Virus record (IMG/VR): IMGVR_UViG_3300049846_000593
Span: 1-25,269 of that record
Strand: one strand, 5' to 3'
DNA: 25,269 nucleotides
Source: a virus
Part shown: positions 3,692-16,891 of the stretch, piece by piece
How positions within the stretch are numbered: position 1 is the stretch's first letter
Layout: the number at the start of each line of letters is the position of its first letter
Position numbers and translations under genes: made by a program
The notes under the pieces: model-generated
The model's input: the letters and a program-made list of their open reading frames with translations, nothing else
What the model was told of the DNA's origin: nothing
Database searches by the model: none

Positions 3692-3997
3692 ATGGCGAAG
3701 CGACTCTCGGTTCGTGATTTTCTGAGTAAACACGAGTTCAAAATCGCAGGGCTAACTTACAAAATCGCATGGTGCAAAGTCATCGACGACAAATCAACGC
3801 TCGGGTACTGCTGTGATGAATCGAAGGTCATATACCTAAAAGAGGGCGAAGACGAGGACGAGACGTTTAAAACCATGATTCACGAGCTTGTTCACGCGAT
3901 AGACCACGTCTATTCACTAAAACTAAGACACGCGCAGGTCAGAAAACTAGAGCTAGCACTTGCGGACTTCATGCTTCAAAATGACTTAGTAAAGTAA
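3692..3997 (+). CDS. Small HExxH zinc metalloprotein
   Basis: The 101-residue product contains HELVH at 64-68, the zinc-binding and catalytic motif of zincin metallopeptidases. His72, His80 and Glu87 lie downstream as possible third ligands. The layout, a short beta-rich N-terminus then one active-site helix, resembles the minimal ImmA/SprT-like phage metallopeptidases. It lies between the large terminase and the portal, so a role in head maturation or in processing a host factor is possible, but position is the only evidence. A capsid maturation protease is normally larger, so I do not call it one. The ATG has no clear Shine-Dalgarno sequence, and a small ACGCG/CGCGT dyad (3653-3665) lies in the gap before it. 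Confidence 0.75.
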   Translation: MAKRLSVRDFLSKHEFKIAGLTYKIAWCKVIDDKSTLGYCCDESKVIYLKEGEDEDETFKTMIHELVHAIDHVYSLKLRHAQVRKLELALADFMLQNDLVK

Positions 3998-12713: not shown

Positions 12714-13910
12714 ATGGGTATCGGATTAGCTAAAAGTAAATCGTCTGTGTGGGTTAAAGAAGAAGTTACGGAAGGAACGTACGTCGCGCCCACCTCTGCG
12801 AACGATGCCCTTGAAGTCATCGAAGACGGGCTTGAGTTTAACTACACGAAAGAAACGATCGAGCGGGACAACCTGACATCCACAATTGAGAAGGTTGCCA
12901 CTCGCACCGGCCTTGCCAGCGTGGCGGGGAGCATCGGGATCGAAAATCGCGCTCATCCAACTGAAGGGGAGGCTCCTTACGCGGACCTCCTCTTCAAGTC
13001 CCTTCTCGGCGGAAAGCGGCAGCTCACGGCCCCGGTTACCTCTAAGGCGGCCGGGCACACCTCCACAACTATCGAGATTGAAGACGCGGATATCGGAGAC
13101 TTCGTCGTAAACGGAGTTTATCTGTTCAAGATCTCCACCGGGTATGAAGTCCGCCCGGTTACCGAGATTGATGATACTATCGGAGCGGCTAAAATCACCG
13201 TAGCCGTTGCATTTGAAGCTGGTGCGCCAACTGGCGCTATCGTTATCGCCAAAATGACTCAGTATTATTTCAATGAGGGGGCTCCAACTCTCTCGGTGAC
13301 GCACTATCTTGGTGGGGAAATCGAAGAGCGCAATTCAGGGCTACGATGTATTTCCGCAAGCCTGGAGAATTGGAGCACAGCGCAGTTGGCTAACTGGAAC
13401 TTTAGCATGGAAGGACTGACACAGACTCGCTCTGTAGCGTCGCCAGCATTTACTCCAGCATTCGATTCTTCTTCGCTCCCTCCCGTTTTGGTCGGCGCTT
13501 GCGTGTATTTCGGCGAACCGGGCAGCATGCTAGAACTCCAATATAACGAACTCAGCCTCACGCTTGAGAACACTAAGGCAGACATTCTCTCGGCCTGTTC
13601 TCCAAGCGGAAAGATTGGGTCTCGGTTCACTGAATTCAAAACCACTGGTTCGTTCGTTCCTTATATGGAAGACGACGATGTCGTTCGGTTCGGAAACTTC
13701 GACATGAATGACACAGTCAGTATTTTCGGATTCGCGAAGAACCCTGGTATGGTTTCTGGTCAAGACCTACAGTGGGTTGCGTTCTGGATCCCAAACGCAA
13801 AGATCACAGAAATCCCGGCTGCTGACCAGGATGGAATCCTCACCGATTCGATCTCGTTTCAGTCCTTCCGAGAAGCCGGGAACGACACTGTTTTCCTTAG
13901 CTTCATTTAA
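12714..13910 (+). CDS. Major tail tube protein
   Basis: The 398-residue product begins with KSSVWVKEEVTEGTYVAPTS and contains EDGLEFNYTKETIERDNLTS near residue 37, a start typical of phage tail tube proteins that stack as hexameric rings to form the tail. The rest is beta-rich, with a probable inserted or appended domain, as it is longer than the common 140-250 residues. AGGAG lies just upstream of the ATG. None of its 11 arginine codons is AGA or AGG, the bias shared with the capsid gene. A strong hairpin follows it. The region before a frameshifted chaperone pair and tape measure fixes the assignment. Confidence 0.83.
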   Translation: MGIGLAKSKSSVWVKEEVTEGTYVAPTSANDALEVIEDGLEFNYTKETIERDNLTSTIEKVATRTGLASVAGSIGIENRAHPTEGEAPYADLLFKSLLGGKRQLTAPVTSKAAGHTSTTIEIEDADIGDFVVNGVYLFKISTGYEVRPVTEIDDTIGAAKITVAVAFEAGAPTGAIVIAKMTQYYFNEGAPTLSVTHYLGGEIEERNSGLRCISASLENWSTAQLANWNFSMEGLTQTRSVASPAFTPAFDSSSLPPVLVGACVYFGEPGSMLELQYNELSLTLENTKADILSACSPSGKIGSRFTEFKTTGSFVPYMEDDDVVRFGNFDMNDTVSIFGFAKNPGMVSGQDLQWVAFWIPNAKITEIPAADQDGILTDSISFQSFREAGNDTVFLSFI

Positions 13911-13986: not shown

Positions 13987-14400
13987 ATGCAAATCTTAAA
14001 GTCCACAGACAGGGTCCGGGTTAAGATCGGAGAGATCGCATTTATTCTTTCGCCACTTAAACAGGCGCAGAAACTAGCTCTCTCAGGAATGACGATCGTA
14101 AAAGATGGGGTAGAGATTCAGGATGTAGCGAATCAGATTTCGTACATCGTGAAATATTGCGTAAAGGGAGTCGAAGGTGTGACAGATGCGCGCGGAGATG
14201 CGATCACACTCTCTTTCGATCCAGACGGCGCGCTAAACGATGACTCTCACTCGGAGGTTTTTGTTATCGTGAATAAAGCGAAACAACACTACCAGGCGAT
14301 GTTCCAGGTGGCCGGGAACGAGATCCCAAAGACGATCAAAGACCTTGTAACCGGAAAAGAAGTTAAGGGCGCAGAGGTAACGGTTCTCCCAAAGACTTAG
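13987..14400 (+). CDS. Tail assembly chaperone, short form (gpG-like)
   Basis: The 137-residue product lies between tail tube and tape measure, the place of the tail assembly chaperone pair (lambda G and GT). It is mainly helical in its middle (LKQAQKLALSGMTIV) and acidic near 78-90. The G form is made when ribosomes stop at TAG 14398-14400. Some ribosomes slip back one base on CCCAAAG at 14388-14394 and continue into the T part. Chaperones of this type bind the tape measure protein while the tube polymerises. No Shine-Dalgarno sequence precedes the ATG, so initiation may depend on the hairpin just upstream or on coupling. Confidence 0.75.
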   Translation: MQILKSTDRVRVKIGEIAFILSPLKQAQKLALSGMTIVKDGVEIQDVANQISYIVKYCVKGVEGVTDARGDAITLSFDPDGALNDDSHSEVFVIVNKAKQHYQAMFQVAGNEIPKTIKDLVTGKEVKGAEVTVLPKT

Positions 14401-14428
14401 GGCCGGACTACGCAGTGCTTACGGCCCT
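14388..14428 (+). promoter_or_regulatory. Programmed -1 ribosomal frameshift signal
   Basis: The zero frame reads C CCA AAG, the canonical slippery heptamer X XXY YYZ (CCCAAAG, 14388-14394). After a 4-base spacer, AGGGCCG (14399-14405) pairs perfectly with CGGCCCT (14422-14428) in a 7-bp GC-rich stem with a 16-base loop, and the stem contains part of the zero-frame TAG. The -1 frame is open through this site into the downstream reading frame. Slippery site, stimulatory hairpin, correct frame and correct gene position all agree. Confidence 0.88.
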
Positions 14429-14864
14429 TCTAACCGAGTCGACGCTTTCTCAGATTGAGATGCTACGACTTGTCTCAACTTTTAATTCTATTACAGACAA
14501 CAGATTCAACTGCTCTGTCTGTATAAAGTCAACTAGCGCAGCGCATCGGGAAGAGAAGAAGCGGTGTAATACGCCTGGCGAAAAACCGGTCGCAAAATAT
14601 CACGACTATTTAAACTACTACCGCTGCCCGGGGGCTTTTAGGTCTCAGGACTCGGTAGAGCTTATATTAGCGCATAGACTGTGGGAACAAGGCGTTTTAC
14701 CATATGATGGCGGGTTATTAGATCAGCCAGCGAAATACGTCGAAGCGATGCGGCTCATCGATGGGCTAAAGATAGAGCATCAAAAGGACTTGGAATTTAA
14801 GGCGGAAAAGTGGCGGACAACAAGGTCTCAGTCGAACTCACGATCGAACAGGCGCAGGCGCTAG
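14394..14864 (+). CDS. Tail assembly chaperone T part, made as GT frameshift fusion
   Basis: This is the -1-frame extension that, joined to codons 1-136 of the short chaperone, gives a fusion of 292 residues. Read as an independent gene it could only start at GTG 14415, which has no Shine-Dalgarno sequence, so the fusion is the better model. The T part has four cysteines in the pattern CX2CX14CX19C (starting with NCSVCIK), a candidate zinc-binding site, and ends in a very basic tail (RSNRRRR). The 3' end overlaps the tape measure gene by 55 bases. In lambda-like phages, the T domain recruits tube protein to the tape measure-bound complex. Confidence 0.78.
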   Translation, partial: DLGPDYAVLTALLTESTLSQIEMLRLVSTFNSITDNRFNCSVCIKSTSAAHREEKKRCNTPGEKPVAKYHDYLNYYRCPGAFRSQDSVELILAHRLWEQGVLPYDGGLLDQPAKYVEAMRLIDGLKIEHQKDLEFKAEKWRTTRSQSNSRSNRRRR

Positions 14865-16891
14865 ACTCCCTCCGATCGATCGGCTCACAGCTAGACAAGT
14901 TCTCTAAAAGCGCCGAGAAGGCCGCAAATAACGCCTCTGGATCATTTAATTCATTCGGTAAGACGGTAGCGGCTGTATTTAGCGGTAACATTCTCGCGGA
15001 GTTCGCGACCAGGGCCGTAGACAGCCTTTTAGAGATCCCGGAAGCGCTTGGGAAAGTAATCGAAAAGGGCATCGAGGCAGAGGCTGCAAACCGAAGACTC
15101 GGGCAAGCCCTTGTAATCTCTGGGAACGCATCTGAAGACGCAAAGGCAGACTTCGAGGCGCTAGCAGCCGACATCGCATCTCTTACCGGGGTTCAACAAG
15201 AGGCCGTAAAAAGCGCTGAGACATTCGCCCTCACACTTGGAGCGACATCGGACCAGGCCCAGAAAATTGTTAAGACAGCAGCCGACCTATCGGTTGCTCT
15301 CGGGGTGGACTTCAACACCGCAGTTCAGCAGCTTTCTCAGACCCTTGAGGGTTCTGCCGGAAGACTTGGCCGGGTGTCTTTTGAGGTTCGACAGCTAGAC
15401 GAAGACGCGCTCAGGTCCGGTGCGGCAATCGATATTTTAGCGAAGAAGTTCGGCGGTCTTGCAGACCTGAACGCATTGAACGTCGGAGTACAACTAAAGA
15501 ACATTGGAAATGGCGTAGAAGACCTCGTACAGAGCTTCGGAGAAGCTATTGTAAACTCTGATGCTCTAAAGGCCGTATTCATCGCAACCAATTCTGTGCT
15601 GAGAGATTTCGGAAGGTTCATCGACGAAAACAAGGGCGCAATTACTAAATTTACTGATGGGCTTGTTCAGGGTTTTCTCACTTCTACGCAGGCAATCGCG
15701 GCGTTTACAGACGCTTCTCTTAGGCTTGGCGCCATCATTAAAAACGTCGTAGAAATCGGACTTGGTGGGCTGGCAACGAGCCTTAACCTTGTAGACTCTG
15801 CGATCGAGAAGATCCTTAACCTTTTCAGATCGGAGCCGTCAACCAGAGCAACAGATCAGCTATCCGAAAGCATAAAGTCTGTAAACCAAGACACCACCGA
15901 TCTTTTAAACGCGTTTGATCCGAGCAAGTTCAACGCCACAAGCGAAGCAATCGTATCTTTCCGTGGGACCGTAGAGGACAGTCTTCAGGGTATTTCTGCT
16001 GCAGAAAAAAGCGCGACAGAAAAACAAAAGGCGCTAGCGGAACAGTCCGCCATAGACCGGGCAGCCGAGAGGCAAAAGCGCTTAGAGGAAGAGGCCGCAT
16101 TCCAAGAACAGCTGTTTCTCATCAGAGAGCAGGCAAACATCAACGCCCAGGCACAGGCACTTGCGCTAGAAGATACAGCGCTTCTCTCTCTTTCAAATAA
16201 CGCAGCACAGATTCAGGCGTTCGAAGAGCAAAAGATTAACACCCAGTTCGCGGCCCAGGAGCGAAAACTCCAGCTGATGAAAGAGGGGACTGAAAAAGAG
16301 CGCGCGATTGCGCTTAATGCAGCAAACCAGCAGGCAGCAGTTCAACAGTCTCGCACCCAATTCGAAGCGAACCAGCAAAGGATCAGAAACGAGAACCTGA
16401 AGTCCAGCCTTAGTTCGATCGCCACACTGACGGCATCTTCCAATAAAGAACTATTCGCGATCGGAAAGGCGGCAGCCATTGCCACGGCAACTATCGACGG
16501 AATCGCCGCGGTTCAGAAGGCGCTTGCCTCTGCCCCACCTCCGTTCAATTTCGTTCTTGCTGCACTTGTTGGGACGGCCCAGGCAATCAACCTATCTAAG
16601 ATCGCATCGACTCAACCTCCGGCATTCGCTGGAGGCGGGATCGTTGGCGGAAGCTCTTTCACCGGAGACAATGTAACCGCAAGAGTAAACTCTGGAGAAA
16701 TGATTCTAAACAAAGATCAGCAGGCAAATCTTTTCGACATCGCCAAGAACGGATCTTCCGGCGGATCTGTAATATCTGCCATCAACGCTCTTGGTGATAG
16801 AATCGCAGCCATGCAGGTACAGATCAACGTAAACGGAAGAGAGCTTGCCAGAATCGTAAGGGATGAACGAGAGGCCGGGTTTGCTGTCTAA
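14810..16891 (+). CDS. Tape measure protein
   Basis: The 693-residue product sets tail length and forms the channel filling of the tail. It is almost all helix with Ala, Gln, Ser and Glu-rich stretches, has hydrophobic segments near 270-340 and 575-600, and a long coiled coil at about 400-540 (AERQKRLEEEAAFQEQLF). The C-terminus carries FAGGGIVGG near 605 and VNSGEMILNKDQQ near 626, signatures common to tape measure C-termini. Start is GTG with AAGGCGGA upstream. A 693-residue tape measure suggests a tail of roughly 100 nm using the usual 0.15 nm per residue, which is inference. It is joined to the next gene by TAATG. Confidence 0.92.
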   Translation: MADNKVSVELTIEQAQALDSLRSIGSQLDKFSKSAEKAANNASGSFNSFGKTVAAVFSGNILAEFATRAVDSLLEIPEALGKVIEKGIEAEAANRRLGQALVISGNASEDAKADFEALAADIASLTGVQQEAVKSAETFALTLGATSDQAQKIVKTAADLSVALGVDFNTAVQQLSQTLEGSAGRLGRVSFEVRQLDEDALRSGAAIDILAKKFGGLADLNALNVGVQLKNIGNGVEDLVQSFGEAIVNSDALKAVFIATNSVLRDFGRFIDENKGAITKFTDGLVQGFLTSTQAIAAFTDASLRLGAIIKNVVEIGLGGLATSLNLVDSAIEKILNLFRSEPSTRATDQLSESIKSVNQDTTDLLNAFDPSKFNATSEAIVSFRGTVEDSLQGISAAEKSATEKQKALAEQSAIDRAAERQKRLEEEAAFQEQLFLIREQANINAQAQALALEDTALLSLSNNAAQIQAFEEQKINTQFAAQERKLQLMKEGTEKERAIALNAANQQAAVQQSRTQFEANQQRIRNENLKSSLSSIATLTASSNKELFAIGKAAAIATATIDGIAAVQKALASAPPPFNFVLAALVGTAQAINLSKIASTQPPAFAGGGIVGGSSFTGDNVTARVNSGEMILNKDQQANLFDIAKNGSSGGSVISAINALGDRIAAMQVQINVNGRELARIVRDEREAGFAV

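Follow-up and report, generated by a model that had tools for sequence, protein, structure and literature searches.

The locus examined here raises a simple question about two overlapping open reading frames (ORFs) in the genome of an uncultured tailed phage; is the second frame translated as a protein in its own right, or is it reached from the first by ribosomes that change frame? In the window, i.e. the whole 25,269-nt stretch that was analyzed, itself an IMG/VR virus record, to which all coordinates given without a locus handle refer, the two ORFs lie between a tail tube gene (12714–13910, + strand; Pfam Phage_tube_2) and a tape measure gene (14810–16891, + strand; PHROG tail length tape measure). 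This order, tube–G–T–tape measure, puts the pair where lambda-like phages have G and T. Given its position, its frame, a slippery heptamer, an open −1 frame and conservation among relatives, we are highly confident that a programmed −1 frameshift would produce both forms of the tail assembly chaperone, G and GT, as a sequence-only reading of this DNA had proposed. Elsewhere in the window, two other ORFs were picked out by eye. The ORF at 816–2072, with which the packaging module opens, looks like a ParB-type domain at its N-terminus and, after it, like a DNA methyltransferase carrying a DPPY motif, and the ORF at 3692–3997, which follows the terminase gene and precedes the next long ORF, encodes a small protein with the sequence HELVHAID, likely a zinc-metalloprotease motif.

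What does the overlap look like at the level of codons? The zero-frame ORF, a G-type tail assembly chaperone gene (13987–14400, + strand), encodes 137 amino acids and ends in GTT CTC CCA AAG ACT TAG, with the stop codon at 14398–14400 (+ strand). Read in the frame of G, the heptamer C_CCA_AAG at 14388–14394 (+ strand) fits the X_XXY_YYZ pattern, just as the sequence-only reading had described it. That reading also had the −1 frame open past the slip site up to 14862, and this is borne out: there is no stop from 14367 to 14861, and the frame closes with the stop codon 14862–14864. The T-type region (14388–14864, + strand, −1 frame) contributes 156 codons after the slip, such that the predicted GT fusion would comprise 292 amino acids (G residues 1–136 plus 156 of T), with a VLPK-DLGP junction and a junction tryptic peptide predicted to start DLGPDYAVLTALL. 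In-frame X_XXY_YYZ heptamers are not rare in the window, with 42 in 7653 codon positions; only the one at 14388–14394 opens onto a long −1 frame (158 codons vs. 65 for the next best). A second in-frame CCCAAAG is found 63 nt upstream in G (14325–14331), where it encodes part of a conserved Ile-Pro-Lys motif. The −1 frame from this site stops after 13 codons, so a slip there would yield only a dead-end product.

The arrangement recurs widely among relatives. A first set of 38 viral loci was gathered through the tail tube alignment, of which 35 relatives were readable, corresponding to 27 non-redundant loci with the window included; a second set of 56 loci came from two further scans with T alignments, and 33 of its heptamer-bearing loci were non-redundant with the first set, giving a pooled collection of 60 non-redundant loci. 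No relatives of the major head protein were found in viral contigs, and no relatives of G or the tail tube were found in bacterial genomes with the patterns used. In every one of the 35 relatives retrieved for the first set, the frame following G is −1 and stays open for 100–176 codons, an open +1 frame of similar length never occurs, and an in-frame heptamer lies 0–27 nt ahead of the G stop at all readable loci. Taken as a criterion, the combination of a heptamer at the gene end and an open −1 frame is present at 27 of 27 non-redundant loci, just ahead of the G stop, vs. 1 of 203 control ORF ends taken from these loci. The one control ORF end that qualifies, in L024 (1370–1888), has an AAAAAAG heptamer at 1870, past which the −1 frame is open over a long distance; this overlap is probably due to chance, since the next gene starts at an ATG of its own immediately afterward. 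In the second set, T is in the −1 frame at 53 of 56 loci, and a heptamer is present at 45. A comparison of homologous phages, which the sequence-only reading had suggested as a check, thus came out in favor of the heptamer. The closest relatives, L006 and L007, even share the CCCAAAG heptamer, with three bases between it and the stop, and their T is also 158 codons long.

Named cultured phages of weaker similarity show the same layout. Alteromonas phage P24, Rhizobium phages L338C and RHph_I4 and Agrobacterium phage JP1 carry AAAAAAC or GGGAAAC; in Rhodobacter phage RcDurkin, also cultured, the −1 frame is open and no such heptamer was found. The GT frameshift is absent from the public annotation of Alteromonas phage P24 (L044, 2956–3267) and of two Rhizobium phages (L045 and L047, 1953–2342), all with AAAAAAC or GGGAAAC. 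Additionally, L060–L062 (G 1576–1992) and L109–L112 (G 239–688 in L109) have T in −1 with no X_XXY_YYZ in the overlap, and the slip site of these loci may be a weaker, A-rich one. In L069, L070 (G 1409–2071) and L078 (G 1571–1960), the T-like match lies in +1 when read against the overlapping ORF upstream, which reflects either +1/−2 frameshifting or a wrongly chosen upstream ORF.

Which heptamers do these phages use? Across the 60 non-redundant loci, AAAAAAG occurs 27 times, AAAAAAC 10, AAAAAAA 9, CCCAAAG 6 and GGGAAAG 5. The expectation that CCCAAAG would be less common than GGGAAAG was therefore not met in this collection. In E. coli, AAAAAAG, GGGAAAG and CCCAAAG are the top three motifs by efficiency (PMC4066793), and CCCAAAG is the most efficient heptamer assayed there, reaching 54% with the IS3 pseudoknot.

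Could T be made without any change of frame by the ribosome? One way would be for translation to re-initiate, or to be coupled, at GTG 14415 or ATG 14460, the heptamer then being a coincidence. Both codons are in frame with T and close to the G stop; neither has an evident Shine–Dalgarno (SD) sequence in the preceding sequence, in keeping with the earlier judgment that T lacks a good start of its own. In seven relatives (L009, L011, L023, L024, L025, L027 and L033), no ATG, GTG or TTG appears in the −1 frame before codon 49–78, and the first start codons that do appear fall within the conserved part of T, so full-length T could be made there only by frameshifting. Additionally, amino-acid selection acts on the −1 frame of relatives right from the slip site. 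For example, over the 57 codons past the slip site in L011, L012, L013 and L019, 5 of 6 pairs have a larger share of synonymous changes in −1 than in either of the other frames, and the −1 frame is never interrupted, whereas the other frames are; in L006 and L007, three codons differ, and all three differences are synonymous in −1. A heptamer is also present in all 27 loci, and none of the 27 has a −1 start codon between −10 and +8 nt of the heptamer start, the range tested because the SD-like element described below would serve initiation there. Due to the startless −1 frames and the pattern of selection in relatives, we rejected an independent start for T and consider it very improbable.

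Two further explanations would dispense with ribosomal slippage altogether, and to each we assign a likelihood close to nil. Since the window is a metagenome contig, in which one missing base could create an overlapping −1 ORF, the two ORFs might be one gene split by an assembly error or a mutation; the same −1 arrangement in 35 and 53 more contigs refutes this, as does its presence in named phages in culture, Alteromonas phage P24 and Rhizobium phage L338C among them. Alternatively, it might be RNA polymerase that slips, as it could on the long A runs that many relatives have (AAAAAAG, AAAAAAA). Transcriptional slippage is, however, hardly credible for CCCAAAG and GGGAAAG, which contain no run longer than three, nor does it account for a site that sits in frame as X_XXY_YYZ with ribosome-acting stimulators on both sides. 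Ribosomal −1 frameshifting is thus the reading that we carry forward.

If ribosomes slip at this heptamer, what stimulates them to do so? Upstream lies an element that the earlier reading had not described: an SD-like GAGGT at 14374–14378 (+ strand), a presumed stimulator whose GAGG ends 10 nt before the heptamer. Among the first-set loci, a good anti-SD duplex is present at this position in 20 of 27, vs. 4.4 predicted by positions of the same phase within those genes, and when synonymous codons were shuffled with the protein kept, 21 loci compared with 12.7 and a maximum of 19 in 2000 shuffles. A [G/A]AGG ending exactly 10 nt upstream occurs in 12 of the 27 (vs. 1.7%). The distance window was picked on the first set; in the independent second set, the duplex is found at 15 of 33 loci vs. 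5.6, and [G/A]AGG at exactly 10 nt at 5 of 33 vs. 1.8%. For the window alone, the synonymous-shuffle test was not significant (p 0.28), so the claim of an SD-like element stands for the family. Its placement fits earlier work, in which SD sequences that stimulate −1 shifts act 9–14 nt upstream (PMC5009743). A conserved SD was seen in 3 of 13 IS/prophage clusters (PMC4066793). In the literature that we searched, from which Xu 2004 was absent, SD stimulation was not found stated as a general rule at tail-chaperone sites.

Downstream lies the second presumed stimulator, a stem–loop at 14399–14428 (+ strand) in which 14399–14405 pairs with 14422–14428 (AGGGCCG/CGGCCCT). The description of a perfect 7-bp stem beginning four bases past the heptamer and taking in the A and G of the TAG was exact; the loop is 16 nt, and the stem folds at −13.3 kcal/mol. 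The window stem is modest relative to chance (z −1.0 to −1.9), and it falls within the most stable 3–4% of local windows. A pseudoknot was considered and rejected for the window, as the loop and the downstream sequence share at most 4 nt of complementarity (GACT), which is not above the level expected by chance. Is the stem conserved? In a single set, the answer was equivocal (Wilcoxon p 0.16). The later pooled test on 60 loci revealed a folding peak directly past the heptamer, with a mean of −8.2 vs. a background of approximately −5.8 kcal/mol, and 18 of the 60 loci, the window included, are in the top 5% of their own neighborhood. As a class, then, the hairpin is real, yet it is facultative, being found at about one-third of loci. 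The sequence-only reading had made the stem a cause of the frameshift; the stem is indeed present in the window, but it is not the general stimulator, for L006 and L007 keep CCCAAAG without a comparable hairpin. By comparison, the upstream SD-like element is more widely conserved than the stem.

Putting these elements together, we envision that most ribosomes would translate G and terminate at the TAG at 14398–14400, while some would be held up at C_CCA_AAG by two features: base pairing of the 3′ end of 16S rRNA with the GAGGT located 10 nt upstream, and the hairpin that stands 4 nt downstream. The P-site tRNA-Pro and the A-site tRNA-Lys would then re-pair one base back, and the slipped ribosomes would go on into T to make the 292-residue GT fusion. 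By analogy with lambda, G would bind the tape measure protein, with tail tube subunits recruited by the T part. The analysis shows the anatomy of the site, its conservation among relatives, the selection acting on the −1 frame and the enrichment of the two stimulators; that frameshifting occurs, how efficient it is and what the two proteins do are all points that we infer.

What do the proteins themselves suggest? Pfam and PHROG searches with G and T of the window gave no convincing match, and a profile search with G against PDB sequences gave none. The predicted model of G is confident (pLDDT 90), and its best Foldseek match in the PDB is the HK97 tail assembly chaperone gp13 (2OB9), a weak match (E 0.21) with a Z of 4.4, an rmsd of 4.3 over 86 residues and 10% identity. 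We take gp13 to occupy the same place in the tail gene module as G does here. Several viral Foldseek matches of the G model are named tail assembly chaperone; the T model has no meaningful match in the PDB. The putative chaperone function of G and T is thus based mainly on gene order, the frameshift itself and the weak structural match. Known tail assembly chaperones are very divergent in sequence.

The closest parallel is G/GT of phage lambda (G_GGA_AAG), with which the window shares gene order, the −1 direction, a heptamer near the end of G, and a G and a longer GT placed before the tape measure gene. It differs from lambda in having C_CCA_AAG, the SD-like element 10 nt upstream and the 7-bp hairpin, and no sequence similarity to described families could be detected for its proteins. 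For the frameshift conserved among the tail genes of dsDNA phages, the source is Xu, Hendrix and Duda (2004), as cited in PMC3711429; the present locus would be an addition to this known class, with a mechanism that is already known. In E. coli dnaX and IS911, too, a heptamer is flanked by an SD upstream and a stem–loop downstream, although their signals make a polymerase subunit or a transposase, whereas the window has them in an unrelated gene, that of a tail chaperone.

Compared with the sequence-only reading, the analysis contributes an SD-like stimulator with family-wide statistics, a facultative hairpin and the recurrence of CCCAAAG in relatives, and it flags GT fusions that automatic annotation has overlooked. 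A broad set of uncultured phages is added to a classical recoding system, and the statistics show that selection acts at tail-chaperone sites, too, on two stimulators otherwise known chiefly from dnaX and IS elements. There is, in our estimation, an even chance that these phages hold a large unannotated family of chaperone pairs in which the SD-like element at a fixed 10 nt is the main conserved stimulator, the hairpin is an optional second one, and the G:GT ratio is tuned by swapping AAAAAAG, GGGAAAG and CCCAAAG. Because the relatives differ in heptamer, SD and hairpin, they offer a natural series on how phages set their G:GT ratio.
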